This document shows, in pieces, positions 15,905-49,723 of a stretch of DNA of 64,000 nt (its first letter is position 1; each line of letters begins with the position of its first letter). The position numbers were made by a program, and so were the translations under genes. The stretch covers positions 3,410,001-3,474,000 of the forward strand of contig NZ_LT607410.1 of assembly GCF_900091515.1 (NCBI RefSeq). Direction: 5' to 3'. The notes beneath the pieces were generated by a model, which ran no database searches, was not told where the DNA came from, and was given only the letters and a program-made list of their open reading frames with translations. This DNA is from Micromonospora purpureochromogenes. Its GTDB lineage: Bacteria > Actinomycetota > Actinomycetes > Mycobacteriales > Micromonosporaceae.

Positions 15905-16522
15905 GCCGGCCGGGCCGGGTGCGCGCCCGCCGGCCGCAGGCCGGGGAAAGCGCGCCCGCACCGCGTCGACGTAGCTGTCCCGGGAGGTCGGGCCGCCGAA
16001 GCGCAGCCGGTCGTAGCCGGTGAAGGCCGGCTCCAGCCCGTCCAACTCGTCCACCAGCGCGTGCAACCGTCGCGCCCACCCCGCGCCGGGCTCCGGCCGG
16101 TCCACCGCCGCGCGGATCGCCACGGTCAGCTCGTCCTTGCGCCGGATCGTCTCCGGCGTCACCGACCGCAGGCACACGTACCGGCCGCTGAGGTAGACGT
16201 CCCACTCCGCCGCGCCCTCCGCCGGGTCAGCCCAGTGCGCGGTGAACCAGGCCCGCAAGGCCGCCGGCCCGCCCGCCCGGTCGGCCAGCCAGAACAGGTC
16301 CGCCGGCACCAGCTGCGCGCCGTCCGAGCGCAGGTAGCCCGGCAGCGGCAACCGCCGGTCCAGCATCAGCCGGCGTACGGCGTCGACGTCGCGCCCGTGC
16401 GCCGCGCAGAGCTCCTCGAGGACCACGAACTGCGCGTCGACGTACGCGTCGTCGGCCGCCGTCATCGGATGGTCCCCGTTTACCTCCCGAAAACGTTGCG
16501 CCACCTGCTCCGCCAGCCCCAT
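15893..16522 (-). CDS. Conserved hypothetical protein (DUF6058-like)
   Basis: A 209-residue soluble protein. Recognisable stretches are YVDAQFVVLEELCAAHGRDVDAVRRLMLDRRLPLPGYLRSDG and WDVYLSGRYVCLRSVTPETI, which I associate from memory with the DUF6058 family, some of whose members lie in natural-product loci. No catalytic motif is evident. The start at ATG 16522 is preferred to longer forms because GGAAGGAGA lies just upstream. Its 3' end overlaps the convergent gene by 12 bases. Confidence 0.6.
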   Translation of the reverse strand: MGLAEQVAQRFREVNGDHPMTAADDAYVDAQFVVLEELCAAHGRDVDAVRRLMLDRRLPLPGYLRSDGAQLVPADLFWLADRAGGPAALRAWFTAHWADPAEGAAEWDVYLSGRYVCLRSVTPETIRRKDELTVAIRAAVDRPEPGAGWARRLHALVDELDGLEPAFTGYDRLRFGGPTSRDSYVDAVRARFPRPAAGGRAPGPAGSAG

Positions 16523-16603
16523 CGCCGTCTCCTTCCCCGCATCGCGCTGCGACGGTAGCGACGCAATCCTTCGGCGGCTGCCCAACAATTCTCGGAATAT
16601 CCG

Positions 16604-16633
16604 TTGCGGGCCCCGGGAGGCCTCGCCTACCGT
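16604..16633 (+). promoter_or_regulatory. Promoter of the tRNA/rtcB array
   Basis: TTGCGG (16604-16609) and TACCGT (16628-16633), 18 bases apart, fit a housekeeping-type -35/-10 pair. Transcription would begin near 16640, giving a leader of about 240 nt before the first tRNA. It is divergent from the gene at 15893-16522. Confidence 0.45.
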
Positions 16634-16674
16634 CAATGCCGCAACGTCACACCGATCACTCCGGGGAGCCCGCC

Positions 16675-16806
16675 GTGCAGCAGCAGACCAGCACCGAGAC
16701 CACGCGGTCCATGCCGCGCGGCGGTGCCATGCTGCCCGCGGGCGAACCAGCCCGGGGCCTGCTCCAGGGCCGGTGTGGCTGGCGACGAGGGTGGCGGCGC
16801 GGATAG
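16675..16806 (+). CDS. Candidate 43-residue leader peptide of an attenuator
   Basis: GTG at 16675, six bases after GGGGAG, opens a 43-codon frame ending at TAG 16804. The first part is unremarkable. The last ten codons encode Cys-Gly-Trp-Arg-Arg-Gly-Trp-Arg-Arg-Gly and include two TGG and two CGA codons. The run TGT-GGC-TGG-CGA-CGA is exactly what the Cys(GCA), Gly(GCC), Trp(CCA) and Arg(ICG) tRNAs of the adjoining array would decode. The frame sits between a promoter and a rho-independent terminator directly upstream of those tRNAs, the layout of a ribosome-stalling leader. Coding potential is inferred from context; no homologue is recognised. Confidence 0.5.
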   Translation: MQQQTSTETTRSMPRGGAMLPAGEPARGLLQGRCGWRRGWRRG

Positions 16807-16858
16807 CGCCAGCGCGACAGCGCAGCCGCCCACCCCACCGGGGAACGGGCGGCTTTTT
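16790..16858 (+). terminator. Rho-independent terminator with a competing antiterminator
   Basis: GCCGCCC (16825-16831) pairs with GGGCGGC (16847-16853), followed by TTTTT. Just upstream, GGGTGGCGGC (16790-16799), which is the leader codons Gly-Trp-Arg, can instead pair with GCCGCC(C)ACCC (16825-16835), 10 bp with one bulge, which would block the terminator. A third hairpin, GGCGC/GCGCC, spans the leader stop codon at 16796-16810. This mutually exclusive set is typical of attenuators. The first tRNA starts 20 bases later. Confidence 0.6.
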
Positions 16859-16878
16859 CGTCACCCGGCACCGGTCCG

Positions 16879-16952
16879 AGGGGTGTAGCTCAACCCGGAA
16901 GAGCACCGGATTCCAAACCCGACGGTTGCAGGTTCGAATCCTGTCACCCCTG
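16879..16952 (+). tRNA. Atypical tRNA-Trp (CCA)
   Basis: 74 nt. Acceptor AGGGGTG/CACCCCT, D stem GCTC/GAGC, T arm GCAGG-TTCGAAT-CCTGT, discriminator G73 as expected for Trp. The anticodon loop is TTCCAAA. The anticodon stem CCGGA/CCCGA has A-C mismatches at both ends, leaving three pairs, which is odd for a housekeeping tRNA. No CCA is encoded. Confidence 0.85.
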
Positions 16953-16995
16953 CCTCATGTCCCGGCACCGCCGGCGACGTCGCTTCTTCTCAACT

Positions 16996-17011
16996 CCACA
17001 GTGGATGGCAT
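16996..17011 (+). repeat. 16-nt element shared, inverted, with the second tRNA cluster
   Basis: CCACAGTGGATGGCAT here is the exact reverse complement of 28256-28271, just upstream of tRNA-Met. Its first nine bases form a small palindrome (CCAC-A-GTGG). Confidence 0.6.
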
Positions 17012-17020
17012 GAGTACGAA

Positions 17021-17051
17021 CCCGGCCGGCGCCGCGAGCGCGTCGGCCGGG
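17021..17051. other. Strong hairpin between tRNA-Trp and tRNA-Glu
   Basis: CCCGGCCG and CGGCCGGG pair over 8 bp with further GCGC pairing inside the loop. There is no T-tract, so a processing or spacing structure is as likely as a terminator. Confidence 0.45.
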
Positions 17052-17084
17052 GGTACGACACGGGGTGCGACCAGCAACCCGCAC

Positions 17085-17158
17085 GGGCCGTTGGAGCAAG
17101 CTGGCAGCTCACCCGGTTCTCGGCCGGGCGGTTACGGGTTCGAGCCCCGTACGGCCTA
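17085..17158 (+). tRNA. Atypical tRNA-Glu (CTC)
   Basis: 74 nt. Acceptor GGGCCGT/ACGGCCT with a G1-U72 wobble, D stem GAGC/GCTC, anticodon stem CCCGG/CCGGG with loop TTCTCGG, T arm ACGGG-TTCGAGC-CCCGT, discriminator A. All stems close. The body differs from the usual actinobacterial tRNA-Glu that I recall, and positions 37-38 are GG instead of purine-A. Confidence 0.8.
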
Positions 17159-17172
17159 CGTAGTGACGACAC

Positions 17173-17244
17173 GCGGTTGTAGCGCAGTGGTAGCGCGTCG
17201 CCTCGCCATGGCGAAGATCGCCGGTTCGAATCCGGCCAGCCGCT
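17173..17244 (+). tRNA. Atypical tRNA-Gly (GCC)
   Basis: 72 nt. Acceptor GCGGTTG/CAGCCGC, D stem GCGC/GCGC, anticodon stem TCGCC/GGCGA, loop TCGCCAT, T arm GCCGG-TTCGAAT-CCGGC, discriminator U as in bacterial tRNA-Gly. The base before the anticodon is C33 instead of the near-universal U33, unusual for an active elongator. Confidence 0.85.
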
Positions 17245-17263
17245 CGGAACACTCCCATCCCAC

Positions 17264-17332
17264 GGGCTGCGCGCTGGGGCGCAGAGAGGCCTTGCAAGCC
17301 ACTCCCGCCGGGTTCGATTCCCGGGCGGTCCA
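17264..17332 (+). tRNA. Atypical 69-nt tRNA-Ala (TGC) with minimal D arm
   Basis: Acceptor GGGCTGC/GCGGTCC, in which G3-U70, the alanine identity pair, is present with discriminator A73. The D arm GCGC-TGGG-GCGC follows the acceptor with no 8-9 linker and only a four-base loop; then AGA, anticodon stem GAGGC/GCCAC (one A-A mismatch), loop CTTGCAA, and T arm CCGGG-TTCGATT-CCCGG. tRNA-Met at 28277 has the same 69-nt plan. Confidence 0.7.
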
Positions 17333-17343
17333 CGAGCCTTTCC

Positions 17344-17363
17344 GCCGCCCCACCCGGGGCGGC
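17344..17363. other. Hairpin upstream of rtcB
   Basis: GCCGCCCC and GGGGCGGC form an 8-bp stem with loop ACCC between tRNA-Ala and the rtcB ribosome-binding site. It could guide processing of the array transcript or attenuate rtcB. Confidence 0.4.
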
Positions 17364-17386
17364 ACCCACGACACCAGGAGAAGACG

Positions 17387-18586
17387 ATGGCATTCACCCC
17401 GCTGCCGGGCACCCGGGCGCCGGTACGGGTCTGGACCGACCCGTACGGCATCGAGCCGCAGGCCGCGCAGCAGCTGCGCAACATCGGCGCGCTGCCCTGG
17501 GTGCAGGGCGTCGCGGTCATGCCCGACGTGCACTTCGGCAAGGGCGCCACCGTCGGCTCCGTCATCGCCATGCGGCAGGCCGTCTCGCCCGCGGCCGTCG
17601 GCGTGGACATCGGCTGCGGGATGTCCGCGGTGCGTACCTCGCTCACCGCGGCCGACCTGCCGGACAACCTGGCGCCGCTGCGCGCGGCGATCGAGGCGGC
17701 CGTCCCGGTCGGCTTCGCCAAGCGGACCGACCCGGTCGACCCGCGCCGGATCCGGGGCCTGGAGCAGGCCGGCTGGGACGCCTTCTGGAAGCGGTTCGGC
17801 GAGCTGGACCGCCGGGTGGCGCAGCTGGAGAGCCGGGCCCAGCACCAGATGGGCACCCTTGGTGGGGGTAACCACTTCATCGAGGTCTGCGTCGAGCAGG
17901 GCGGGCCGGACGCCGGCCAGGTCTGGCTGATGCTGCACTCCGGGTCCCGCAACATCGGCAAGGAACTCGCCGAGCGGCACATCGGGGTGGCGCGGAAGCT
18001 GCCGCACAACACCGACCTGCCCGACCGCGACCTGGCGGTGCTCCTCGCCGGCACGCCGGAGATGGACGCCTACCGCCGGGACCTCTGGTGGGCACAGGAG
18101 TACGCGCGGCGCAACCGCGCGGTCATGCTGGCGCTGCTCTGCGGCGTGGTCCGGGAGCAGTTCCCGCAGGTCGCCTACGGCGAGCCGATCAGCTGCCACC
18201 ACAACTACGTGGCGGAGGAGAGCTACGACGGGGTGGACGTGCTGGTCACCCGCAAGGGCGCGATCCGGGCCGGTCGGGGGGACCTGGGCATCATCCCGGG
18301 GTCGATGGGCACCGGCTCGTACATCGTGCGCGGCAAGGGGAACCCGGACGCGTACTGCTCGGCGTCGCACGGCGCCGGGCGGCGGATGTCGCGGGGGCAG
18401 GCGAAGCGGACGTACAGCACCGCCGACCTGGTCCGGCAGACCGCCGGGGTGGAGTGCCGCAAGGACGCCGGGGTGGTCGACGAGATCCCCGGCGCGTACA
18501 AGGACATCACCAAGGTGATGGCGCAGCAGGACGACCTGGTCGAGGTGGTGGCGCACCTCAAGCAGGTGGTCTGCGTGAAGGGTTAG
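17387..18586 (+). CDS. rtcB: RtcB-family RNA ligase
   Basis: A 399-residue protein with the RtcB signature throughout: MPDVHFGKGATVGSVIA, VGVDIGCGM (metal-binding Asp and Cys), LGGGNHFIEV, LHSGSRNIG, ISCHHNYVAEE, and SASHGAGRRMSR containing the histidine that becomes guanylylated. RtcB joins RNA 2',3'-cyclic phosphate or 3'-phosphate ends to 5'-OH ends with GTP and Mn2+, reversing cleavage by ribotoxins and anticodon nucleases. ATG follows AGGAG. It is embedded in a tRNA array: 54 bases after tRNA-Ala, 37 before tRNA-Arg. No rtcA, rtcR, archease or Rsr gene is seen. Context implies that its substrates are broken tRNAs. Confidence 0.97.
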   Translation: MAFTPLPGTRAPVRVWTDPYGIEPQAAQQLRNIGALPWVQGVAVMPDVHFGKGATVGSVIAMRQAVSPAAVGVDIGCGMSAVRTSLTAADLPDNLAPLRAAIEAAVPVGFAKRTDPVDPRRIRGLEQAGWDAFWKRFGELDRRVAQLESRAQHQMGTLGGGNHFIEVCVEQGGPDAGQVWLMLHSGSRNIGKELAERHIGVARKLPHNTDLPDRDLAVLLAGTPEMDAYRRDLWWAQEYARRNRAVMLALLCGVVREQFPQVAYGEPISCHHNYVAEESYDGVDVLVTRKGAIRAGRGDLGIIPGSMGTGSYIVRGKGNPDAYCSASHGAGRRMSRGQAKRTYSTADLVRQTAGVECRKDAGVVDEIPGAYKDITKVMAQQDDLVEVVAHLKQVVCVKG

Positions 18587-18623
18587 GCCGGCCGGCGCCC
18601 CTGGGGGGAGGCGCCGGTCGTAC

Positions 18624-18696
18624 GCCCCGGTGGCGCAGCGGAGAGCGCGCCGGTCTACGACACCGGAGAGCCCAGGTTCGAATCCTGGTCGGGGCA
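18624..18696 (+). tRNA. Atypical tRNA-Arg (ACG)
   Basis: 73 nt. Acceptor GCCCCGG/TCGGGGC (G7-U66 wobble), D stem GCGC/GCGC, anticodon stem CCGGT/ACCGG, loop CTACGAC, T arm CCAGG-TTCGAAT-CCTGG, discriminator A. If A34 is deaminated to inosine it reads CGT, CGC and CGA. All stems are intact; this is the most normal member of the array. Confidence 0.88.
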
Positions 18697-18730
18697 CGGT
18701 CCGTATCCGCCGGCGGTGGAGCGGAACCCT

Positions 18731-18803
18731 TGCGAGCTGGTGCAATCGGCAGCACAGCCGACTCTGGATCGGTCGTTCTCTGGGGGTTCCGGCCAGTCCG
18801 AGG
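18731..18803 (+). tRNA. Degenerate tRNA-Gln-like element (CTG)
   Basis: The 5' half is clearly tRNA-Gln-like: GTGC-AATCGGCA-GCAC D arm, anticodon stem GCCGA/TCGGT and loop CTCTGGA. The 3' half has only CTGG/CCAG around a nine-base loop GGGTTCCGG in place of a TTCGA T arm, and no 3' strand complementary to the 5' acceptor is found. It is a decayed gene, a chimera at an insertion boundary, or a tRNA-like RNA of another kind. Confidence 0.45.
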
Positions 18804-18961
18804 TGGACTTTCCACCGAAGTTCCGGCAGCTCAGTGGCTATTTTCTTGAACTCTAGCGATCACAACAGGTGTTGCGCAAGCGAGCTCGCTCCGTGGCGCC
18901 CAACCGGGTGAGCGGATGTTGATGTCGCCTCGGATCCTTGCCGCCGGGCCGACTGCTGTGC

Positions 18962-19057
18962 GCCGTTTGCGACGGATACGTCCTGCGCCTGCCGCCCTCC
19001 GCCGTCGACCTGCACAAGTTTCGACACGAGGTGACGGCTGCGTTGGCGGCCCAACGG
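18962..19057 (+). pseudogene. Fragment of a SARP/AfsR-type regulator (BTAD region)
   Basis: Translation gives CDGYVLRLPPSAVDLHKFR followed by HEVTAALAAQR. GY-L-L-PP-AVDLH-F is the junction between the DNA-binding and BTAD domains of SARP regulators. No start, helix-turn-helix or remaining BTAD is present, so only about 30 codons survive. It marks rearrangement at the left edge of the accessory island. The rest of 18804-19194 holds no confident gene. Confidence 0.5.
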
Positions 19058-19194
19058 TGTGGTCAGCGTGACCGCGCCGCCCTTGGTGGAACACAACTCT
19101 GTCGGTCCCGCGTGCCATCATCGAGTCACCCGAGCGCAACGGGGCCTCTCCTCCGGACCCGACTTGCCTGATTGGGACCAGTTTGAGGACGCGC

Positions 19195-22100
19195 ATGAAC
19201 CTGAGAGCGACGCACTACGGCTATGCATACCAGGACCTCATCACTGGCATCGCCCTCGTCGACCTCATGCTAGGCACCGCCGAAAGCATCACGGTCGACA
19301 CCAAGGGGTTCACGGGCGACCGGTTCGACGACCTGACTATCGGCTACAGGACCGGTCGGCGAGTCCGTTTCCAGATCAAGCACACGACTCTGGACCGCGA
19401 GCTCTCGAAGGACAGCTTCTCCGGAGACGGGAGGAGTCTCCGGCTCGACTTGCTGTACGGCGCTCTCCTGTCCGACCTGGACCAGCATCCCGGCACTACG
19501 TACCGGGTCATCGTCCGCGACGGCAACCCGGATCAGGACCTCGCCGCCGTGCTAAAACCCGTTGACGCGGCAGACGACCCTGGTGACCCGCTGCCGGGCG
19601 TCGCCACCCGCAGGTTCAAGTTCGACCCGACGGCCCTCCAGAAAACTGAACCCTGGAAAACGCGTCTTACCGGGCTCACTGAAGTGCAGATCCGCACGGC
19701 GTGCGAGTACCTCACGATCGACACCAGCGCCCCGGCTTCGACGCTCGACTTCTCCGCGCCCGGTCCCGCTGAGCGCGCGCTCCTACGTCGCGTTATCGAG
19801 GAGCTCGGCGCTGGCCGCACGCCCAACACCAACATTCTACCCGAATACGCGGCGCTCGCCTTGGCACACGCAGCCACTGGCGCCCGCGCACTCGACGGGA
19901 ACGTCGCGCGGGAACGCGTTCTGCCCCAAGTCGGGCTCACCACCGACTTCGGTGCCGTCACCGAAGGACACCCCATCGAAACGGCCGTCGTCGTGCCCCG
20001 GGCCGGCGCTACCGCCGACGTGCGCAAGCATGTCGACGCCGTCGCCCCCGCCGGCGGCCGCGTCGTCGTTACCGGCGAACCCGGTGTCGGCAAATCCTGG
20101 CTGTGCGAACAACTCGCAGACACCTACCGCGACGAAGGTTGGATTGTTGCCCGACACCACTGCTGGCTCGGTGCCACCGATATCAACCGGGAGGAGCGCG
20201 TCCTCACCGACGTTGTCATCGGAAGCCTTCTGCGGCAGCTCGAACAGATCGTGCCTGAAGCCACCACAGACCTGCGGCCCAGGTTCGCCGCTACCCCGGA
20301 AGCGCTCACCGTCGCAGTCCAGGCATGCCGCGAGACGCTCCCCCGGCAGAGCGTACTTCTCATCGTCGATGGTCTCGACCACGTCGACCGGGTCCTGGGC
20401 CGGCGTACCAGCCAGCAGACGGACCCCTCACGCCTATTGGTTGACCAGCTTGCCGCCATCGACCTGCCGCCCGGCGTATGCATGCTCATCGCCAGCCAAC
20501 CCGGTTCCCACCTCGCCAATGCAGCACCCGGTGCCGGCGACCCCGTCCCGATGCCCCGCATGTCGTGGGAGGAGATCCGCACTCTCGCGACCAAGCACGG
20601 GCTGCTCACCGAACCCGGGGGGACCGAGCCGCTCGATGACGACGACGAACACACCATCGTCGACCTGGTCCACGACCGCTCCGGCGGCAACGCGCTATAC
20701 GCCACCTACCTGTGTCGGTACGCGACCCACACCTCGCCGCTCGACGACGACGTAGCACCGGGCACGGTCAGCGACATCATTCACCGGCTGACGCGTGTCC
20801 CCGACACGGCCACTGACGTCGGTGCATACTACGAGTACCTGCTTGGCGCGATGACCGCCGACCAGTTGTTCGCCATCGGTACCCTCGCGCTGTGCGACTT
20901 CGCGCTGTCCGCGAACGAGCTCGGCGAACTGCTTCCCCCGGTGATGAAGCCGTTTTTAGCGCCCGCTCTCAAGACGCTTGCACCCGTGCTGAACTCGCAA
21001 CCCGGCCTCGGTGGCCTGCGCATCCATCACGAAAGCTTTAGCCGGCACATCCTGCGCGGCAAGGACGACGAGTGGGTCGCCTCCATCCGTGAAAGCGCGG
21101 CCGCGTGGCTCGCGGCTCGCGGTTTCTTCACCGACGCGCGGGCGTTCCGGCACCTTCCCGAACTCCTCGCGCACCTGGACCGGTACGACGAACTGAAGGA
21201 GCTCATCCAGCCGGGCTTCGTCGCCGAAGGCATCCGCGCGTTCCAACCGCCGGAGGCGCTTCAGCGGGTCGTCGGGATCGTTGCCCGTGAAAGCGAAGCA
21301 CGACTCGACTGGCCAACGCTGATCACCTGCGTCGAGACCCGCAAGTCAATTGACACCTACGAGACCGAGTCGCTGACCGACTCGATCGTCGAGTACTCGG
21401 ACGTCGTGGTGGCCATCGTCGGTGCCGACTTCGTAGCCGAGCGACTCATGTACGAAGGACGGCCCACATTCCCGTCACGGTGGGGGCTCCGCCTCTGTGA
21501 GTCCGTGGACCGAGCCGGGGCTGCGGCCCCCTGGAAGGCGTACATCGACGTCCGAGAGTCCGAGTCGAAACGCGAACGCTCCACCTACAGCTCCGACCGC
21601 GACGGCACCCTCCACCTCGCCATCCAGCTCGGTGCGCTGCGCCTCCGCAATCAGCGTGGTGACATCCCGCCGAACCTGGCCGAACAGGTTGCCGAGAACC
21701 TCGAACTCGACCACGACGCGTCCCTCGAAGAGCTCGTCGACGTGTTCACCGCCGGTCTCCCGGCAGGGTCCATGCCGGACGTTGCCGCCGCGATGACCGA
21801 CCCCAACAAGGCGGCCCGGGTATACCTGAGACTCGCCGACCTCGCCGCAGCCGAGACACCCGGCCTACCCGATCAGGCCGACTTCGCCCGGCAGGCGTGG
21901 ACGCTTGCGCCGGTACTCGACATCGTCGGGTACCTGAACCACGGCATCCCCGCCGGTGACGTTCTCGAAGGGCTGGGAACCAACGACCTTGAAGCGGACA
22001 TCCAGGCCGCCACCGACGCCGTCCTCGACGGTCGTTCCGCCAACTACGGCGACATTCAACGGTGGCTTTCGCTCCTCACGCTCGCCCACGCCCTCGACCG

Positions 22101-24402
22101 GTCCATCCCGCTCAAGTACGCCAGCCAGCTCGCGGGCGTCGGCTTCTATCGCGCCTGGCTGCGGTACGCGGTGGCTACCATCGGCGTCGCAGACGACGTC
22201 GCCGCCGATGTCACCAGGGCCGAAGCAGCCTCCACGGCCGTCCTAGTCGCGCTCGCTGACCTCGCGGCTGAAGCACACCCGTTCACCGGGGACCCGAGGG
22301 CGTGCGACCTGTATTCCATTCACTCACTCGTTCACAAGGTCGTCGAGAACTCCCTCATCGTCGTCCAACCCAGCGACCTCGGCCCGGTGCTCACCCACCT
22401 CATCGCCATCGGCGACGGCACCACCACCACGACCAACTTCGGACTACCCGAGAGCGGGCCCCTTACAACCAATGACCTCCTCAAGATCCTGTCTCGCGTC
22501 TCCGACCACATCGGCGTCGACGCCATCCACGCCCTGATCAAGGTCATCCGGGACCGACGCCGTGACACCAACACCCAGTACAGCGTCACCGCCAACTTCG
22601 AACTCGCAACCGCCCGCATCTGCGTCATCGCCGGCGCGAAGGATGAAGCCGACGAATGTTGGCGCCGCGCCTGCCTGCTCCTTGCAAGCTACGGCGGACA
22701 CAAAGACCCCACCATCTTGGAAATCATCGACAGCATCCACGACATCGCCGACGTCGACATCGACGCCGCACGCGCATGCCTGGAGAAGCTCGTCGATCTC
22801 GTCTACCTGGTGCGGCAGCACACCAATGGCCGCGGCACCTCAGGCTTCGTGACCCGGTGGTGGGAGGAGGCCGCAACCATTGATCCGATCGCTGCGGGCA
22901 TCGACGGCGCGGACACCCTCCTCGCCATGCTTGGGTTCGAGGACGTGCGCGCGTACACCGCACACACGCACCTACTCGAAACCCAGGTCATGACCGCGGA
23001 TCCCATCGTCCTGGCGGCCCTGCGACTCGCCGTCGGGACGGGCTGGCGTCGCCCGACCACGGACCTTGAGCTCCTCACCCGGCTCGCGAATGAGCTCGGC
23101 AGGAGCCCGCAGACGGACGTGATGCTCGCCATCGTCGCGAACAACGTCGCGGCGACCTACGACGACCAGCCGATGCTTTACTCCAGCGACCAGCCCAAGT
23201 CCGCGGTGACACCGGAGCTTGTCGACGCAGTCGTCCGATTGGGTGGCGCAGCTTTCCCGGCCCGGACGCCGCGCCCGGAGCAGAAGCGGAACAGCGCATG
23301 GGACTCCAACCCGAAGCCTGACCGGCTGGAGTTGCAGAAGCGGCTCGTGAGCGACCAGCGTCCCATCGTCCTCGAAGGCCGGGCGGGTGCGATACTCGCG
23401 GCACGAGAGTTCGACAACCAGCGGTATCGGGACGACGCGGCTCCCAGGTGGGACCTTGACGCGGTCACGAACGCCATCGGATGGCGCATCATCGAAGCGA
23501 CCCTGACCTATGGTGCAGAGGCGGGTATCGGGCTAGTTGAAGACGTCGCCCGTGAGGTGTCCCGATTTTCCGATAACGAGGTGTTCGCTGGTCTTGGCGA
23601 GGGCCTCGCCGCCCGCTGCGACGGCACCAGCGACGCGTTGAGGACGGTCGCCAGCCACTGTCTCACGCTCGCTTACATCCGTATCCGCGGCGGGGGCGGG
23701 TGGCGCGCGTTCGCCGGACGGGAACGTGTAAACCTGTGGACCACAGCACAAGAGCTGGATTCGGTTACCGCGGAGCGGACGCTGGCGTCGGCGGTCACCG
23801 AGACGGTTGATTCAGATGCGCAGCGCACGTACGGGGTAACGCAGGCTGTGGTTGCAGCGTTCGCTTCGACGCCGACCGGCGCGCCGGGTGGTACGGCGGT
23901 CGAGTGTTGGGAGGCTGCATTCCCGGTCATCCAACATCGGCTCCCGGGGATCGCGGAACGGGCCGGTCACACGTACCGGCCGACCGTGGCTCCTGACTCG
24001 CAGGATGCATTGGATGTCGCGTTGGCGACGCTTGCGTTGGCGACGATCTCTCAGCCGGTGCGCGCGGACCTGCGGCAGACGCTCCTCGCCACCGCACTCG
24101 TGGTGACGTGCCGCCCGAGGATCGGGCAGGCAGCACTCGTCCATGTACTGCGAGCTGGCTTGGACGCAGGCCGAACCACATGGCTGTTGGACGTCGTACG
24201 CACCTGCCTGCCGATTGGCGATCTGACTGATGAGATGGCGTCAGAGTTGACGCAGCTGGCTGGAACGGATTGGTTGTCAGTGCGCGTGCTCGCGGGCCGG
24301 ATCCTGGACGCACACGGCCGTCCGGTTCCGTACCCGACGGCGACCGAACCCGCCCCGAAGGTACGAGCTGCCTTCCACGACCTCATGAGGAAGCGCGAAT
24401 GA
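19195..24402 (+). CDS. Avs-like protein: Cap4-type nuclease motif, P-loop NTPase, long helical C-terminus
   Basis: A 1735-residue protein. Residues 8-63 carry a PD-(D/E)XK pattern: YGYAYQ (Gln13), FDDLTI (Asp45/46) and FQIKH (Gln60-x-Lys62), as in Cap4/DUF4297 nuclease effectors. A STAND-like NTPase follows, with Walker A GEPGVGKS at 294-301 and Walker B LLIVDGLDH at about 388-396. The remaining ~1100 residues are mostly predicted helix, like the sensor arms of antiviral STAND (Avs) ATPases that recognise phage proteins and then cleave DNA. ATG at 19195 is set by GAGGA 5 bases upstream. The stop overlaps the next start (ATGA). Base composition is visibly less GC-rich than the flanks, suggesting acquisition. 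The Avs assignment rests on architecture only. Confidence 0.75.
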   Translation: MNLRATHYGYAYQDLITGIALVDLMLGTAESITVDTKGFTGDRFDDLTIGYRTGRRVRFQIKHTTLDRELSKDSFSGDGRSLRLDLLYGALLSDLDQHPGTTYRVIVRDGNPDQDLAAVLKPVDAADDPGDPLPGVATRRFKFDPTALQKTEPWKTRLTGLTEVQIRTACEYLTIDTSAPASTLDFSAPGPAERALLRRVIEELGAGRTPNTNILPEYAALALAHAATGARALDGNVARERVLPQVGLTTDFGAVTEGHPIETAVVVPRAGATADVRKHVDAVAPAGGRVVVTGEPGVGKSWLCEQLADTYRDEGWIVARHHCWLGATDINREERVLTDVVIGSLLRQLEQIVPEATTDLRPRFAATPEALTVAVQACRETLPRQSVLLIVDGLDHVDRVLGRRTSQQTDPSRLLVDQLAAIDLPPGVCMLIASQPGSHLANAAPGAGDPVPMPRMSWEEIRTLATKHGLLTEPGGTEPLDDDDEHTIVDLVHDRSGGNALYATYLCRYATHTSPLDDDVAPGTVSDIIHRLTRVPDTATDVGAYYEYLLGAMTADQLFAIGTLALCDFALSANELGELLPPVMKPFLAPALKTLAPVLNSQPGLGGLRIHHESFSRHILRGKDDEWVASIRESAAAWLAARGFFTDARAFRHLPELLAHLDRYDELKELIQPGFVAEGIRAFQPPEALQRVVGIVARESEARLDWPTLITCVETRKSIDTYETESLTDSIVEYSDVVVAIVGADFVAERLMYEGRPTFPSRWGLRLCESVDRAGAAAPWKAYIDVRESESKRERSTYSSDRDGTLHLAIQLGALRLRNQRGDIPPNLAEQVAENLELDHDASLEELVDVFTAGLPAGSMPDVAAAMTDPNKAARVYLRLADLAAAETPGLPDQADFARQAWTLAPVLDIVGYLNHGIPAGDVLEGLGTNDLEADIQAATDAVLDGRSANYGDIQRWLSLLTLAHALDRSIPLKYASQLAGVGFYRAWLRYAVATIGVADDVAADVTRAEAASTAVLVALADLAAEAHPFTGDPRACDLYSIHSLVHKVVENSLIVVQPSDLGPVLTHLIAIGDGTTTTTNFGLPESGPLTTNDLLKILSRVSDHIGVDAIHALIKVIRDRRRDTNTQYSVTANFELATARICVIAGAKDEADECWRRACLLLASYGGHKDPTILEIIDSIHDIADVDIDAARACLEKLVDLVYLVRQHTNGRGTSGFVTRWWEEAATIDPIAAGIDGADTLLAMLGFEDVRAYTAHTHLLETQVMTADPIVLAALRLAVGTGWRRPTTDLELLTRLANELGRSPQTDVMLAIVANNVAATYDDQPMLYSSDQPKSAVTPELVDAVVRLGGAAFPARTPRPEQKRNSAWDSNPKPDRLELQKRLVSDQRPIVLEGRAGAILAAREFDNQRYRDDAAPRWDLDAVTNAIGWRIIEATLTYGAEAGIGLVEDVAREVSRFSDNEVFAGLGEGLAARCDGTSDALRTVASHCLTLAYIRIRGGGGWRAFAGRERVNLWTTAQELDSVTAERTLASAVTETVDSDAQRTYGVTQAVVAAFASTPTGAPGGTAVECWEAAFPVIQHRLPGIAERAGHTYRPTVAPDSQDALDVALATLALATISQPVRADLRQTLLATALVVTCRPRIGQAALVHVLRAGLDAGRTTWLLDVVRTCLPIGDLTDEMASELTQLAGTDWLSVRVLAGRILDAHGRPVPYPTATEPAPKVRAAFHDLMRKRE

Positions 24403-25565
24403 CGTCGGCGACACCGGAGGAACGGGCTGAAGGGTTCGTGACTCTGTTTCTCGATGACCGCCTTGAGGATGCGAACGAGCCCCCGGGATTGCGTGAAGCA
24501 ATCGTCGACCGGCTTGTCGGGCAGGTTGACGACATCGGGAAACGCTTCGGCGAACAGATCGACCATCTGCGATCATCGTGGGCCAGACGGATGCCGGACG
24601 CGTATCTCGCGGACGAAGAAGTCGTTGAGAACGAGCTGCAGATGGGTGCTGCCGGCATCCGGACCGCACGAGCGCTAGAAGGAGTTCTATCAGACCCCCG
24701 ACGATTCGAACAGACTCTCGCGCAACGCTTGGCACCGAACGCGCGATGGGCGCTGCGCAGCGAGGCATCAAGGGTTCCACGGCCCCCAACTCGAGCCAGT
24801 GTGCTCGACTGGTCGCTGACACCCATCCCGTGGGTCGATGACGACGCTGAGTGGCCTCCCGCCGGCGCGGTCGCCCTCGCGGATGTCCGGCAACTCACTT
24901 GTGCAGACGGCGGGCCGGCGCGCGTAAGCGAGGAGCCGTACAAAGGATGGGTCCAGCTCGGGATGTTCGAGCGGCAAGCAACACTGGCCAACCGCCACCC
25001 CGACATCGCAGCCCGGCAAATACTCGTCGCAACCGGACTCGAGGCGTGCGACGGTCCACCACCCGTCAACAGCATGCCACTCTCCCGCGCCGCACCGGAC
25101 CCGTGGGCCATCTGCTGCGACGACCTCGCACCAGGCCTCGACGCCGAACGTGCCCGCATCGCCCTCAGCTCCACCCGGGGACCCCTCGCCGCACTCGTCG
25201 ACTACGAGGGCCAACCGGGCGCCCCAGCGCATGACCGTGGAGTTGGACTCCAACGTTTCACGCTCGTCCCCCGGATCGAAGTTGTCGCCCTTCTCGGGCT
25301 CCGCCCCGAAACCCCAGCATTACGTCACGTCCTTGTCGACGACAGCGGCGCAGCAATTGTCGGGCGGCAATGGCGCGGTTTCCTCATCCACGATGGCAGA
25401 TACAGTCCACTCGAACCAGCCGTCCACGGAGCCGATCTAATCCTCCGCCCCGACCTTTACGAAATCCTCGTAAACACCGTCGGTAAGGATCGACTTTCCC
25501 TCGGCGTGACCGTCAGGCATTCCGAGAACGCGCCATCACCCGCCGCACCGAAAGGCAACGATTGA
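24399..25565 (+). CDS. Unknown protein coupled to the Avs-like gene
   Basis: A 388-residue soluble protein that I cannot assign. The start ATG overlaps the preceding stop in ATGA, with GAGGA upstream inside the large gene, so the two are translationally coupled. The N-terminal 130 residues look helical and charged (EERAEGFVTLFLDDRLEDANE); the remainder is mixed with several Trp and Pro (DWSLTPIPWVDDDAEWPP). No P-loop, signal peptide or membrane segment is seen. Coupling suggests a partner such as an inhibitor, second effector or adaptor of the defence-like NTPase. Confidence 0.8.
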   Translation: MTSATPEERAEGFVTLFLDDRLEDANEPPGLREAIVDRLVGQVDDIGKRFGEQIDHLRSSWARRMPDAYLADEEVVENELQMGAAGIRTARALEGVLSDPRRFEQTLAQRLAPNARWALRSEASRVPRPPTRASVLDWSLTPIPWVDDDAEWPPAGAVALADVRQLTCADGGPARVSEEPYKGWVQLGMFERQATLANRHPDIAARQILVATGLEACDGPPPVNSMPLSRAAPDPWAICCDDLAPGLDAERARIALSSTRGPLAALVDYEGQPGAPAHDRGVGLQRFTLVPRIEVVALLGLRPETPALRHVLVDDSGAAIVGRQWRGFLIHDGRYSPLEPAVHGADLILRPDLYEILVNTVGKDRLSLGVTVRHSENAPSPAAPKGND

Positions 25566-25653
25566 CGCGCCTCGTCCCTCCATGTTGAGACTCCTCTTCG
25601 CCGCACACCGAGGGAACTCACTCAACCCGTTCGACTAGCGAAGGTGACAGGCG

Positions 25654-26292
25654 TTGACCGATGTACTGATCGCGGCGGCGCTGACGCTGCTCGGGTGCGC
25701 GGGCTTGTGGAAAGCCTGGCGGTTCCGTCATGGCCGCGCACCCGAACTCGGCGACAGCAGGTTCGGCTACCTCATGCTGCCCGCCGGAGCCGCTTTCCTC
25801 ACCGCCGCGGTCGGGCTCCTCGCCGAAGCCTTCGTCGACACGACGTCCGACCCCGCGGCTGTCCTCGGCGTCCTCACCGCCATCCTGCTGATCACGGCGA
25901 TGATCTTCGCCGTGATCAAGCCGGGATTCCTCGCCCCCAGACCGGACGGGCACCCAGGCTCATGGCCGGCGGCGGACCGGACCACGCCGGCCGCGGCCGA
26001 CCCCGCCCCGCGACTGCAAGATCCGATCAAGAGCTCCGAACTCGTCCCCGCCTGGCAGAACAGGGTCTGGTACCGGGCGGTGACCGGCGCGTTCATCACC
26101 ACCATGGTCATCTCCCTCGGACTGTCCGCCTTCTGGTTCGACGACTTCGACGAAGGCACCGACGCGACCGACGTACGCCGCATGGCCGTCATGTTCGCCG
26201 TGCTCCTGCCGCTGTTCTGGATCGTCCTGGCGCGGCGCCGGCGCCGGCGGGCCGGCCGGCTCCACGACGACGGCACCAGACGCCGAGGCTGA
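25654..26292 (+). CDS. Membrane protein of unknown function
   Basis: A 212-residue protein with about five membrane segments (near 3-20, 38-60, 68-90, 142-161 and 175-196), a Pro/Ala-rich cytoplasmic linker at 90-135 and a basic C-terminus RRRRRRAGR. The TTG start at 25654 is supported by AAGGTGA upstream. No family is recognised. It follows the unknown coupled gene by 88 bp and may be a membrane component of the same locus or an unrelated passenger. Confidence 0.7.
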   Translation: MTDVLIAAALTLLGCAGLWKAWRFRHGRAPELGDSRFGYLMLPAGAAFLTAAVGLLAEAFVDTTSDPAAVLGVLTAILLITAMIFAVIKPGFLAPRPDGHPGSWPAADRTTPAAADPAPRLQDPIKSSELVPAWQNRVWYRAVTGAFITTMVISLGLSAFWFDDFDEGTDATDVRRMAVMFAVLLPLFWIVLARRRRRRAGRLHDDGTRRRG

Positions 26293-26302
26293 GGCGGGTC
26301 AC

Positions 26303-26644
26303 TTGCGTATTCTCATCACGGGGGCGCCCGGATTCCTCGGCCGTGCGGTCGCACGGGCGCTCAGCGAGGCCGGCCACGAGCTGACTCTGGTGACACATCA
26401 GCGCAAGATGCCGCGTCGTTCTCTTCGCATGACGCGGCCGAGGGGGACGTACGGGACACGAGATTTCGCCGTGTTGTCCTGGAATCCGGCAAACACGACC
26501 GGGTCCGTCATCTGGCCGCGCTTGTGCCCGGACGTGCTGGCCCGGCTGCTAGACACCGTCAGTGAGACCCGACTCCGCACCGCCACCTTCGCGAGCCACC
26601 AAATTAGCGGCGAGGACGTCGACGAGGAGCAGTCAGCGTGTTAG
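26303..26644 (+). pseudogene. Truncated NAD(P)-dependent epimerase-like gene
   Basis: The first ~35 codons (MRILITGAPGFLGRAVARAL, then SEAGHELTLV) are the nucleotide-binding start of an atypical SDR/epimerase. After about residue 36 the frame continues as low-complexity sequence with no family resemblance and stops after 113 codons. The family is normally about 300 residues. I read this as a 5' fragment joined to unrelated DNA, consistent with a mosaic island. Confidence 0.55.
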
Positions 26645-26679
26645 TACACACGTACCAAAGCCCGTTGTATGGTGCGTGA
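26644..26679 (+). promoter_or_regulatory. Promoter and operator candidate for the accessory lexA
   Basis: TATGGT at 26668-26673 lies six bases before the ATG, implying a leaderless mRNA. GTAC-ACAC-GTAC at 26644-26655 overlaps the expected -35 region. It does not resemble the usual actinobacterial SOS box (GAAC-N4-GTTC), so this LexA may recognise a different operator. Confidence 0.4.
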
Positions 26680-27330
26680 ATGACAACCTCCAATGGTGCC
26701 GAGGTCGAGCCGCCCCACATCAGCGCCAAGCAGCAGCGCATCCTGACTGTTATCCGCGATTGGATCCAGCCGCACGGCTACCCACCCACCGTTCGCGAGA
26801 TCGGTGCAGCGGTCGGGCTTGGCTCCCCCTCGTCCGTGGCGCACCACCTGAACATGCTGGAACGGCGCGGCCTCCTGCGTCGAGAGGCGAACGCATCCAG
26901 GGCGGTCGACATCCGTAGGGCGCAGGTTGGCCCGGCATCGAACGGAGCGGACGAGCCAGGCGTCAAAGTTCCCGTGCTTGGCACTATCGCTGCCGGCGCC
27001 CCTATCCTCGCAGAGGAACACGTGGAGGACGAGCTGAGGCTGCCTCGCAACCTAGTCGGGCACGGCACACTGTTCGCTCTGCTAGTTAAGGGCGAATCCA
27101 TGATCGAGGCGGCGATCTGCGACGGAGACGTTGTCGTCGTGCGCCGGCAGGCGGTCGCCGAGAACGGCGACATCGTCGCCGCGATGATCGAGGGCGAGGC
27201 GACGGTCAAGGCCTACCGGACCCGCGACGGTCGCGTCGAGCTCGTCCCGCGAAATCCGCTCTACGAGGTGATCTCCGCCGAACACGCGGTCATCCTGGGC
27301 AAGGTCGTCTGTGTGCTTCGGCGCGTCTAG
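26680..27330 (+). CDS. lexA: LexA-family repressor (accessory copy)
   Basis: A 216-residue LexA. The N-terminal winged helix includes KQQRILTVIRDWIQPHGYPP and VREIGAAVGLGSPSSV; the Ala-Gly cleavage site is in TIAAGAP; the catalytic dyad is Ser in VKGESMI and Lys in ATVKAYR. All parts for RecA-stimulated self-cleavage are present, so DNA damage could derepress its targets. The chromosome should have a housekeeping lexA elsewhere, making this a mobile or island copy. Its location within an island holding a nuclease-NTPase suggests damage-linked control of the island, which is inference. Confidence 0.93.
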   Translation: MTTSNGAEVEPPHISAKQQRILTVIRDWIQPHGYPPTVREIGAAVGLGSPSSVAHHLNMLERRGLLRREANASRAVDIRRAQVGPASNGADEPGVKVPVLGTIAAGAPILAEEHVEDELRLPRNLVGHGTLFALLVKGESMIEAAICDGDVVVVRRQAVAENGDIVAAMIEGEATVKAYRTRDGRVELVPRNPLYEVISAEHAVILGKVVCVLRRV

Positions 27331-27644
27331 CGTCAGGCCGACGTTTGAGCCGTGCTGCTGCCGTGTGCGGAGCAGATCCAGCTCAAGCGCCCGCAAATGG
27401 CGAGCGTGCAGAAGGCCGACAGCACGTCAATCCGACGTCTACCCCAGTTCCCACGCGGTCCACCTGACCACCCATGGCCGTTCGGGTCGCGTGGCCGGAA
27501 GCGGCTGATCCCCAAACAGTACTGCTCCTACCGCCTCGGCCGCTGCCCGCATCTCCGCCTCCGGGTCCCGCAGCGGATCACACACCACCATCAGGAGATC
27601 GCCGTGCACGAGTGTCTGGGCGGGGTGGCCCGTCTGCTGCCTGA
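27331..27644. other. Gap without a confident gene
   Basis: About 310 bases between lexA and the nuclease-like ORF. A minus-strand frame at 27439-27696 (ending VVRWTAWELG) is open but has no convincing start or homology. I see no repeats or tRNAs here. Confidence 0.5.
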
Positions 27645-28034
27645 TCCGGCGGTGCCGCGGAAGCCGACGTTGCAGACGTAGACGAAGGTAAGGCAATCGC
27701 TTGGTTCTCGGAGCGGGGCTACGTCGTTTCGCTGCCGGTAGAGCCTGCGATCTACGACCTCATCGTCGACTCGCCGAACGGCCTCGATCGGATCCAGGTG
27801 AAGTCGTCGACGACAACGAGCCGTACCGTGAAGTTCACCCGGACTGTCTACGACAACCAGCAGCCGGGACGGACATCCACCGGTTACTTCCGGTCGGCAC
27901 CATACGAACCCGACGAGATCGACTACTTCTTCGTCGTCCTTGGCGACGGCTCGATGTATGTGCTGCCGTATGAAGTGATTGGACGGCGCAGCACGGCCAA
28001 CATGGGCGAGAGGTACGAGGAGTTTCGGGTGTAG
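27645..28034 (+). pseudogene. PD-(D/E)XK endonuclease-like ORF lacking a canonical start
   Basis: The frame is open from 27645 to TAG 28032. It encodes DEGKAIAWFSERGYVVSLPV, then YDLIVDSPNG and RIQVKSSTT, and ends MGERYEEFRV. YDLI...D plus Q-V-K is the pattern of the group-I-intron-associated PD-(D/E)XK family. No ATG, GTG or TTG precedes the nuclease core in this frame: the first is GTG 27798, which would remove the catalytic half. Either the 5' end is lost or frameshifted, or a non-standard codon is used. It directly precedes the second tRNA cluster. Confidence 0.55.
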
Positions 28035-28050
28035 CCAGTAGTTGCGTCTT

Positions 28051-28116
28051 GCCGGCGTAGCCCAGCGGCCAGAGCACCGCCCTTGTGGGCCGGCACCTGC
28101 CAGTTCTGCGAGCAGG
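28051..28116 (+). tRNA. Degenerate tRNA-Thr-like element (TGT)
   Basis: It starts GCCGGCG-TA, D arm GCCC-AGCGGCCA-GAGC (one mismatch), anticodon stem CCGCC/GCCGG (one C-C mismatch), loop CTTGTGG. Beyond that it degenerates: CCTGC and GCAGG enclose an 11-base loop in which TTC and GA are split by an insertion, and the following bases do not pair with the acceptor. Like the Gln-like element, its 3' half is abnormal and it faces the island. Confidence 0.4.
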
Positions 28117-28127
28117 GTAAGGACACC

Positions 28128-28150
28128 CGCCGTCCGGAGGCCAGACGGCG
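28128..28150. other. Hairpin between tRNA-like genes
   Basis: CGCCGTC and GACGGCG form a perfect 7-bp stem with a nine-base loop. No T-tract follows. Confidence 0.4.
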
Positions 28151-28179
28151 ATGTTGCGCGCTCGGTCGGTGCTGCGGCA

Positions 28180-28253
28180 GACCGGGTGCCCGAGTGGACA
28201 TGGGGCGATCCGCAAATACGTACACGTGGGTTTGATTCCCGCCTCAGTCTCCA
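28180..28253 (+). tRNA. Atypical tRNA-Cys (GCA) with encoded CCA
   Basis: Acceptor GACCGGG/CTCAGTC (one C-A mismatch), D stem CCC/GGG or GCCC/GGGC, loop CCGCAAA, T arm GTGGG-TTTGATT-CCCGC, discriminator U73, the main cysteine identity base, followed by CCA at 28251-28253. The anticodon stem is weak (about three of five pairs) and U33 is replaced by C. It is the only array member with an encoded CCA. Confidence 0.6.
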
Positions 28254-28255
28254 CG

Positions 28256-28271
28256 GATGCCATCCACTGTG
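28256..28271 (-). repeat. 16-nt element, inverted copy of 16996-17011
   Basis: ATGCCATCCACTGTGG is the exact reverse complement of the sequence upstream of tRNA-Glu in the first cluster. Here it lies six bases before tRNA-Met. Confidence 0.6.
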
Positions 28272-28276
28272 GTCCT

Positions 28277-28345
28277 CGCCGGAGGGCGTGGGCCCAGCCG
28301 CTGCTCATAACGGTGGCCCGCCCGGTTCGACCCCGGGTCCGGCGA
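28277..28345 (+). tRNA. Atypical 69-nt tRNA-Met (CAT) with minimal D arm
   Basis: Acceptor CGCCGGA/TCCGGCG is fully paired. The D arm GGGC-GTGG-GCCC follows directly with a four-base loop; then AGC, anticodon stem CGCTG/CGGTG (two G-U), loop CTCATAA, T arm CCCGG-TTCGACC-CCGGG, discriminator A. C1-G72 and the lack of three G-C pairs in the anticodon stem argue against an initiator. Ile(CAU) cannot be excluded. It has the same 69-nt layout as tRNA-Ala at 17264. Confidence 0.72.
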
Positions 28346-28366
28346 CTCATCCGCAGTGCCGGTCAG

Positions 28367-29281
28367 TCAGGCGGTGGCGGCCAGCAGGACCGGCACGGCC
28401 ACCACGTGGGTCCGGGAGCCGTCGCGGGGCGACACCTCGTACACCTCGACGGTGCCGGGGCCGGCGGACGCCAACCGGTAGGCGACCCCGCCGCGGTAGT
28501 CGCCGCGGCAGCCGCTGCCGCAGGTGGCGGTGGTGAAGCCGGTGCCGACCACCCGGCCGCTGCCGTCGAGGATCCGGATCGAGACGGTCGCCTCGTACAC
28601 GTCGGCGGTGCCGGCGACGGTGACCGGCCCGGTGACCCGCTGGCCGATGGCCGGCTCGGTGACCACGATCGGCGCCAGCAGGTCGGCGAGGTCGGTGCGG
28701 GCCAGCACGACGCCGCTACCGGCGAAGGCCACCCGGCGCACGGTGGGAAACTGGGTGAGCGTCCAGACCACCTGCGCCCGCCGCAGTCGCAGCGTCGGGG
28801 CGTCGGTGTCGGCGAAGGACGGGGGCGGGGCGACGGTGGCGGTGCCCTCGGCTATCCGGACCATCTCGACGCCGGCGGGGACCAGGGTGGCCAGGCCGGT
28901 GGCGGCCTCGGCGGACGTGGGCCCGGCGGCCAGTTCCGCCAGCGCCAGCCGCGAGGTGGCGACGGTGGTGGGTCGGGTACGCCGGGTCGGCACCACCACC
29001 CCGGCGCGGGCGAACCAGAGCTGCACGGTCACGCTGCCCGTGCCGGCCGGCGACGGCGTCCCGGTCCGGGGCGGTGTCACCGGCGCGGTCGACCGGGTGG
29101 CGGTGGGGCCGGGGGTGCCGGCGGTGGGGGTGCCCGGCGGGGCGGTGGGGGCGGTCACCGGGGCGCCGGCGGTGCTGGGCGCGGCGGCGCGGGGGGCCGG
29201 TCCGAGGGTGCCCGAGCGGGCGTCGGCGCAGCCGGCGAGCAGCAGCGCGAGCGCGGTGAGCAGGGCGGGCAGCCGGTTCAC
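28367..29281 (-). CDS. GerMN/Gmad2-domain lipoprotein
   Basis: A 304-residue lipoprotein (lipobox LLAGC near residue 18) with a long Pro/Thr-rich linker. A GerMN domain starts near residue 88 (VTVQLWFARAG, then VVWTLTQFPTVRRVAFAGSG). A Gmad2 immunoglobulin-like domain lies near 205-300 (IVVTEPAIGQRVTGPVTVAG and VAYRLASAGPGTVEVYEVSP). In spore formers these domains occur in germination and assembly proteins; in actinomycetes they occur beside two-component systems. Its start overlaps the kinase stop (ATGA-type), so it is the last gene of the regulator-kinase-lipoprotein operon and a likely envelope accessory. Confidence 0.9.
   Translation of the reverse strand: MNRLPALLTALALLLAGCADARSGTLGPAPRAAAPSTAGAPVTAPTAPPGTPTAGTPGPTATRSTAPVTPPRTGTPSPAGTGSVTVQLWFARAGVVVPTRRTRPTTVATSRLALAELAAGPTSAEAATGLATLVPAGVEMVRIAEGTATVAPPPSFADTDAPTLRLRRAQVVWTLTQFPTVRRVAFAGSGVVLARTDLADLLAPIVVTEPAIGQRVTGPVTVAGTADVYEATVSIRILDGSGRVVGTGFTTATCGSGCRGDYRGGVAYRLASAGPGTVEVYEVSPRDGSRTHVVAVPVLLAATA

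Positions 29282-48887: not shown

Positions 48888-49723
<836 letters not shown>

Follow-up and report, generated by a model that had tools for sequence, protein, structure and literature searches.

What do bacterial and phage arrays of transfer RNA (tRNA) genes do, and when are they switched on? The question is raised here by a locus of Micromonospora purpureochromogenes in which up to nine tRNA-like elements surround rtcB, a gene for an RNA ligase. The window is the whole stretch of DNA analysed, 64,000 nucleotides long (NCBI RefSeq assembly GCF_900091515.1, contig NZ_LT607410.1, positions 3,410,001 to 3,474,000 of the forward strand), from a host genome of 6.67 Mb in one contig. An earlier note on this DNA had read the locus as a stress-released reserve of nuclease-resistant tRNAs co-expressed with their repair ligase; it overlooked three things: a leader peptide in front of the array, an insertion that divides the tRNAs into two groups, and decay in several of the genes. 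Our analysis points to a tRNA reserve-and-repair operon that is probably under ribosome-mediated transcription attenuation, judging from the sequences, and the question of function and timing is addressed by a match between the amino acids of the leader peptide and those of the tRNAs behind it. This match of leader peptide and tRNA array is a new, testable result. The reserve-and-repair idea is partly supported; a switch is now added to it, and most of the nuclease-resistance argument drops away.

Upstream of tRNA-Trp, a conserved stretch of about 270 nt (window 16604-16859) holds a promoter-like site, a Shine-Dalgarno sequence, an open reading frame (ORF) and a terminator (Table 1). In an alignment of 37 Micromonospora leaders (the window’s and those of 36 of 51 matched loci, eight duplicates and seven short matches having been dropped), the ORF starts with GTG, runs for 36-44 codons and is open in 36, one of which (L217) terminates at a different stop. 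The stretch folds more strongly than shuffles (z -3.0). Generic tools recognized little of it: a sigma-70 scan listed no promoter at the window leader, a terminator scan with a loop limit of 8 nt listed none in the window region, and no Rfam family exceeded its cut-off in the leader stretch. The leader sequence AGGGTGGCGGCGCGG had hinted at a T-box riboswitch, a reading that was rejected, with no Rfam hit, no match to the T-box covariance model up to E 10, and a motif count at chance level (10 in the window, 8.0 expected). The leader may directly precede rtcB where linked tRNAs are absent (e.g., L038/L130), and in one genome where no tRNAs were found (G522) it is shortened to 12 codons, as read by eye. 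The N-terminal halves of the Micromonospora leader peptides are alike, as they might be if the ORF encoded a small protein with its own function; this is very improbable, given that fewer than half of the residues are shared between leader clusters and that length, position, distance from stop to terminator and the link to array content are kept.

Attenuators of the trp, his, and ilv operons (see also PMC1183508) combine a leader ORF, a terminator, alternative pairing, and control codons that match what the operon supplies. The leaders of the tRNA arrays resemble them in having a leader ORF, a terminator, predicted alternative pairing and supply-matched leader content. Unlike them, the window operon supplies tRNAs and a ligase rather than biosynthetic enzymes, and where arrays are large, the leader contains almost every amino acid instead of runs of one. 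In the mechanism that we propose, a ribosome would translate the leader ORF close behind RNA polymerase. With all needed charged tRNAs available, it would come to the stop codon and cover the ORF end, the terminator would form, and the operon would be off. If a sensed tRNA were missing (cut, damaged, or depleted), the ribosome would stall earlier in the leader, the ORF end would pair with the terminator 5′ arm, and by this antitermination the polymerase would enter the tRNA genes and rtcB, inducing them on what would be a common transcript. The operon tRNAs, once charged, would substitute for the missing ones, and RtcB would reseal broken RNAs. Amino-acid starvation could presumably trip the leader too, although spare tRNAs would cure tRNA loss, not starvation. 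Support at the level of sequence comes from the layout, the open frame, the match in content between leader and array, and the complementarity of the pairing segments. The conserved attenuator predicted in front of the array argues for the stress release proposed earlier.

The order of leader, terminator and array recurs in other genera, on a Nonomuraea plasmid (35 tRNAs) and on several IMG/VR contigs, mostly before tRNA-Trp. A search pattern composed of the terminator arm and the tRNA-Trp start, in which leader content was not used, matches 43 of 200 family genomes; a stricter pattern matches 15 of 394 class genomes, where nine of the 15 loci are chance matches to tRNA-Ala. Among 30 pattern loci examined, L507 and L508 are chance matches, and a scripted leader ORF was found at 26 of the 28 others (only 15 codons long in L510 and L511); L509 has one under laxer rules, as does L537, and L522 ends at the contig edge. 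In some leaders outside Micromonospora (L537, L478) the Shine-Dalgarno sequence is weak or missing. A leader-end pattern run over viral contigs returned 83 stretches, four of them at recognized arrays (L404, L409, L478, L481). The IMG/VR contig L404 and the chromosomal 30-tRNA array of genome G456 carry the same leader, and some IMG/VR contigs may therefore not be viral.

Leader content tracks array content across these loci. Leaders were clustered by single linkage at 50% identity, representatives were drawn at random in 20 draws, and arrays were permuted among leaders. For 43 loci in 16 clusters the match gave p=0.0005, the floor of 2000 permutations, in 20/20 draws, with or without the last six leader residues, and a presence-only test gave p 0.0005-0.0030; with L235, L242, and L248 added (46 loci, 19 clusters) p was 0.0002, the floor of 5000, in every draw, and 0.0002-0.0016 for presence only. 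Hand-picked representatives gave p=5e-6; all other tests drew them at random. An amino acid occurs in the leader in 94% of cases if the array has its tRNA and in 65% if it does not. The match survives regressing out the guanine-plus-cytosine (GC) content of the leader (p 0.0003, 16 clusters), so GC is not the explanation, and it persists without F, I, K, N, Y, and M and in the reduced arrays alone. All array amino acids are present in the leader for 34 of 37 reduced arrays, the exceptions being L531 (D), L535 (T), and L233 (H, K). Gaps coincide as well: Leu and Phe are missing from array and leader alike in L536, and C, D, H, I, K, N, T, V, and Y in L537. Arrays cut, or possibly cut, by a stretch or contig end were omitted (L395, L400, L410, L404, with L552, L550, L557, and L408 used instead), as were L538 and L539, which have no clear leader, and Micromonospora loci without the search pattern; at a few loci (e.g., L530, L478, L537) a choice among overlapping ORFs was made by start and position before the match was computed. 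These findings suggest that the spares may be switched on once the cell cannot read the amino acids of those very tRNAs.

Leaders of large arrays come close to the full set of amino acids. In a group of 11 (L233 included; L235, with six tRNAs seen, left aside), all 20 amino acids occur within 40 codons in L404/L552 and within 46 in L395, five leaders contain 19 kinds, and the rest contain 18, 18, 17, and 15, such that nine of the eleven hold at least 18. They are richer in kinds than codon-position shuffles (P 1e-4) and than stretches of window proteins (P 4e-10), combined values that are overstated because several of the leaders are mutually similar. Their mean is 18.5 kinds, compared with 14.1 in 36 Micromonospora rtcB-locus leaders (p 8e-7). 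On balance, we lean toward a new class of sensor, in which the leader peptide would act as a test strip for the tRNA pool, built from the amino acids of the operon’s own tRNAs. Failed decoding of any one amino acid, of up to 20 in 40 codons, would then release the whole set, often including RtcB in the Micromonosporaceae, and as arrays shrank the peptide would lose the matching amino acids. If true, this would be a new form of regulation, in which the ribosome tests whether decoding is complete and summons spare tRNAs and RNA repair, and arrays that are live responses to tRNA-cutting toxins would become easier to recognize. Leader content that tracks the array also makes the function of tRNA arrays directly and cheaply testable.

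A different sensing role can be envisaged, in which the leader responds generally to ribosome-targeting antibiotics, as erm or whiB7 leaders do, and not to particular missing tRNAs. Antibiotic-induced attenuators share the layout of leader plus terminator. According to PMC10272220, chloramphenicol, Sp, and Sm (abbreviated thus in that paper) induce the promoters of the Anabaena trn operon and rtcB, and kasugamycin and penicillin G do not. However, a sensor of this kind requires no match between leader and array, and the match observed is strong; moreover, few amino acids are missing from the leaders of large arrays. We therefore consider a general antibiotic sensor improbable.

The predicted switch itself can be followed across clusters. 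From the stop codon to the terminator 5′ arm there are 19-26 nt in 15 of 16 clusters, a spacing that fits a ribosome at the stop leaving the terminator free, and an intrinsic terminator meets strict rules in 15 of 16. For nascent RNA free of the ribosome, pairing between the terminator 5′ arm and the ORF end is predicted in the window at 0.99, vs. 0.61 in shuffles (p=0.040); antiterminator pairing combined over 15 clusters gives p=1.5e-6 and lies above the shuffle mean in 14.

Several observations weigh against attenuation by array-matched leaders. Within the 36 Micromonospora rtcB-locus leaders, leader diversity and array size are uncorrelated (rho 0.02, p 0.92), and 27 of the 36 keep Trp codons with no tRNA-Trp detected; Trp and Arg at leader ends may serve RNA pairing rather than sensing. 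The window leader holds all nine array amino acids, which on its own is not significant (P 0.077), and the match at codon level is weak (530/698 vs. 507.5, z 2.2). The L235 leader contains 19 kinds for six array amino acids seen, and array tRNAs without their amino acid in the leader occur in L409 (D, F), L481 (V), L478 (Y), L375 (five), and, as already mentioned, L233. The L032 leader, the exception among the 37, has lost its frame, and cluster L540 has no terminator under strict rules. Single-cluster p values for antiterminator pairing spread from 0.003 to 0.565. A model with the ribosome on the stop codon frees the terminator arm in some leaders only; in the window the arm is still 0.89 paired, because RNA further upstream can still pair, and in view of these mixed results the switch is a predicted one. 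Lastly, most arrays outside Micromonospora were found through the terminator arm and tRNA-Trp, and both features are thus partly selected.

The array of the window is small, with nine elements at most, clustered, redundant and chromosomal; those of relatives have 20-36 tRNAs. ARAGORN calls six elements (Trp, Glu, Gly, Ala, Arg, Met). A covariance model trained on 20 array tRNAs (R1) and run unfiltered over window 16000-29500 ranked all nine first, every one on the + strand: Arg scored 83.0 bits, Glu 76.7, Trp 76.6, and Gly 75.0, values inflated by the presence of these four among the training sequences, followed by the Gln remnant at 30.5, Ala at 22.5, Cys at 21.4, Met at 21.0, and the Thr-like element at 17.3; the next match had 11.5. 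Over the whole window and 40 other loci, stray R1 matches score as high as 17.2 bits (window 15360, minus strand) and, outside the window, about 21 bits, which puts the Thr-like element at chance level and means that the Cys, Met, and Ala calls lean also on position and relatives. The Rfam tRNA model independently detects Trp, Glu, Gly, and Arg at 49.7-67.6 bits and gives Cys 24.9, under its cut-off of 29. Eight of the nine tRNA-like elements around rtcB are real. Of the seven foldable and two degenerate tRNAs counted earlier, eight stand; the Thr-like element is at chance level, and Cys, counted then as foldable, is decayed. Identity bases for aminoacylation are in the sequence as had been claimed (G3-U70 for Ala, U73 for Gly and Cys, G73 for Trp). 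According to ARAGORN, 50 further tRNA genes in the genome include every array isoacceptor, so the array is supernumerary. The earlier note would have been refuted had these been the cell’s only copies, which they are not.

The grouping of these tRNAs in two sets on one strand, which that note described correctly, is not original. In a close relative (G627), the counterparts of 16595-18775 and of 28180 onward adjoin, about 53 bp apart, and the window must therefore hold an insertion of about 9.4 kb, with edges at about 18775 and 28180, that cuts tRNA-Gln. Within it GC is about 0.66, down from about 0.72 or higher. The inserted segment encodes a 1739-aa protein with a NACHT/AAA domain (window 19183-24402), which looks like a STAND-type defence gene (its sole PADLOC match is weak, E 0.003), and a LexA-like repressor (26680-27330; TIGR00498, E 4e-65) that may control the inserted element. 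G627 retains Gln at 73.5 bits, an ARAGORN-called Cys, and the Met-like element; in the window Gln is cut and Cys decayed. The array of the window genome is reduced and partly decayed.

Such decay invites the reading that the whole locus is a disintegrating tRNA array of mobile or phage type, in which rtcB and leader are leftovers without present use. Besides the broken Gln and Cys genes and the insert, 18 of 36 relatives have no linked tRNA, rtcB is truncated in G548, and plasmids and IMG/VR contigs carry large arrays. Against this, identity between the window and G627 is 93-96% in tRNAs and 63-87% in spacers, a difference from which the intact tRNAs appear constrained; rtcB and the leader ORF are retained genus-wide, and leader content tracks the array across clusters. 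A locus without present use is unlikely.

In the window, tRNA-Ala ends 54 nt upstream of rtcB, as described earlier, and tRNA-Arg begins 38 nt past it. Among 36 related rtcB loci of Micromonospora, 18 have adjacent tRNAs (E 1e-5; L055 by the R1 model alone), usually Glu and Gly immediately 5′ and Arg-ACG and Gln immediately 3′ of the gene, which is embedded among and co-directional with tRNAs at orthologous loci, in agreement with the arrangement first noticed here. The second refuting condition of the earlier note, a lack of linked tRNAs at every other rtcB locus, therefore does not hold either. A Germane-domain gene flanks the locus in the window, and in 19 of the 36 it is also found downstream, within the fetched stretch. 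In other Micromonosporaceae genera, where 36 of 62 listed rtcB places were sampled, adjacent co-directional tRNAs were found at five of the 36; L233 has 23 tRNAs near rtcB, one of them outside the array, and L256 has 20 and a truncated rtcB. Among 107 rtcB loci from a class search and a named genome collection, nine have any ARAGORN tRNA and four have adjacent co-directional ones, all four in Micromonosporaceae, and linkage as a trait of other actinobacteria was dropped. As a separate observation, L068 (G040, a different family, outside Micromonosporaceae) has a tRNA-Met directly 5′ of rtcB at 10237-10308.

The idea of rtcB as the core of the system was likewise dropped, since arrays with the same kind of leader exist without it. 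It is present in one of 10 array-bearing records, some of which are possibly fragments, and genome G026 (C4) has a second, separate 18-tRNA array with its own leader (L492) and no rtcB in the 13.6 kb examined. The design does not depend on RtcB. Elsewhere in the genome of the window there is a second RtcB, with about 40% identity, next to an archease gene.

The shape of the tRNAs bears on the remaining part of the earlier proposal, in which they are formed to resist anticodon nucleases and backed by RtcB. Only tRNAs passing E 1e-5 were counted, which admits 44 of 50 canonical genes and leaves out five of the nine window elements. Mismatches in the anticodon stem, taken then as special to the array, are found in 18 of 69 linked and 8 of 39 canonical tRNAs (distinct tRNAs, p = 0.64; 0.42 in a second comparison); they are not enriched, stem damage was rejected as a special trait, and nuclease resistance by way of broken stems is not supported. 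C33 is real. Twelve of the 69 linked tRNAs have it, each with the anticodon GCC (Gly); it also occurs in 14 of 148 large-array tRNAs, of several types, and in no canonical 7-nt loop (37 counted). It has been proposed that phage tRNAs escape nucleases through changes in the anticodon loop (PMC10264068), and the conserved C33 of tRNA-Gly is the sole trait that fits such evasion, a fit that is weakly supported. With stems no more often mismatched than elsewhere and linked C33 confined to one anticodon, tRNAs shaped against nucleases appear doubtful.

Related systems share parts of the design. In the portion of PMC10272220 available to us, the Anabaena trn operon and rtcB belong to the TrcR regulon and are both induced by translational stress. 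Spare tRNAs and rtcB are common to both cases; there the tRNAs are on a megaplasmid, rtcB is chromosomal and control is by a ribbon-helix-helix (RHH) repressor, unlike the single transcript behind an attenuator predicted for the window locus. The rsr-yrlBA-rtcBA operon of Salmonella, as covered by the accessible text of PMC7790460, pairs RtcB with a tRNA-like RNA and responds to broken tRNA, as is predicted here. That operon uses RtcR and RtcA; neither family was found in the window genome, with no matches to PF06956 (RtcR) or PF01137 (RtcA), profiles that detect controls in 1 and 5 of 14 genomes.

Mycobacterial plasmid and phage array units are similar in their dense, redundant tRNA genes (PMC12803027, PMC5966550, both in their available portions), and those portions contain no mention of RtcB. 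In the M. avium array the tRNAs are altered in the D, anticodon, and variable arms, an HNH gene lies within the array, and the role of the unit is called unknown in the sections of PMC12803027 at hand. Three mycobacterial plasmid arrays begin with another tRNA, and an ORF search found no leader ORF with a Shine-Dalgarno sequence before them. Actinobacterial plasmids (L376-L378 and others) repeatedly carry an HNH gene akin to the one within the tRNA array of L272, in some cases with no dense tRNA array nearby. Microbacterium phage Cece and IMG/VR contig L299 also carry a tRNA array with RtcB nearby or inside. For phage arrays with RtcB an array-matched attenuator is not established: in L299, whose 29 tRNAs enclose rtcB, a candidate ORF and a hairpin resembling a terminator precede the first tRNA, and Cece was not searched. 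The open-access literature, with subscription journals and bioRxiv mostly outside the search, yielded no tRNA array with a leader peptide and nothing on Micromonospora tRNA genes with RtcB.

Table 1. Features of the leader and tRNA array around rtcB, in window coordinates.
Feature	Position	Strand	Basis
Promoter-like site, TTGCGG - 18 nt - TACCGT, genus-conserved	16604..16633	+	37-leader alignment
Shine-Dalgarno sequence, GGGGAG	16663..16668	+	37-leader alignment
Leader ORF, GTG start, 43 codons + TAG, VQQQTSTETTRSMPRGGAMLPAGEPARGLLQGRCGWRRGWRRG	16675..16806	+	Open in 36/37
Proposed antiterminator 5′ half (ORF end), limits by eye	16790..16801	+	Pairing prediction
Hairpin GGCGC-GGATA-GCGCC over stop codon, in many Micromonospora leaders	16796..16810	+	Sequences read by eye
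Intrinsic terminator, GC stem then T run	16824..16859	+	Alignment, fold analysis
tRNA-Trp(CCA), anticodon stem with two mismatches	16879..16952	+	ARAGORN, Rfam, R1
tRNA-Glu(CUC)	17085..17158	+	ARAGORN, Rfam, R1
tRNA-Gly(GCC), C33	17173..17244	+	ARAGORN, Rfam, R1
tRNA-Ala(UGC), D arm reduced, 96% identity to G627	17264..17332	+	ARAGORN, R1
rtcB, RNA ligase, 399 aa, intact	17387..18586	+	PF01139 E 2.8e-125; solved RtcB relatives
tRNA-Arg(ACG)	18624..18696	+	ARAGORN, Rfam, R1
tRNA-Gln remnant, 3′ half lost at insertion	18733..18801	+	R1 30.5 bits; intact in G627
Inserted lower-GC segment (NACHT protein, LexA-like, others) splitting the array	18776..28179	+	G627 contiguity; GC dip
Thr-like element within the mapped insert, chance level	28051..28135	+	R1 17.3 bits; E 0.3 in wider search
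tRNA-Cys, decayed	28180..28250	+	R1 21.4 bits; ARAGORN calls it in G627
tRNA-Met-like, D loop very short, kept in G627	28277..28345	+	ARAGORN, R1

Other observations concern neighboring sequences. The window carries TTCTCAACTCCACAGTGG 3′ of tRNA-Trp, similar to TTTGAGAACT, which stands before the first tRNA in the mycobacterial plasmid arrays L371-L373 and which we take to resemble the rRNA boxA signal. In L031 (G012), the tRNA that occupies the Trp position of the array (10222-10294) carries the anticodon CCC; ARAGORN assigns it to Gly, and it resembles a Trp tRNA whose anticodon has changed. Further along the window, a c-di-AMP riboswitch is found at 48885-49059 (Rfam RF00379, 65.4 bits).

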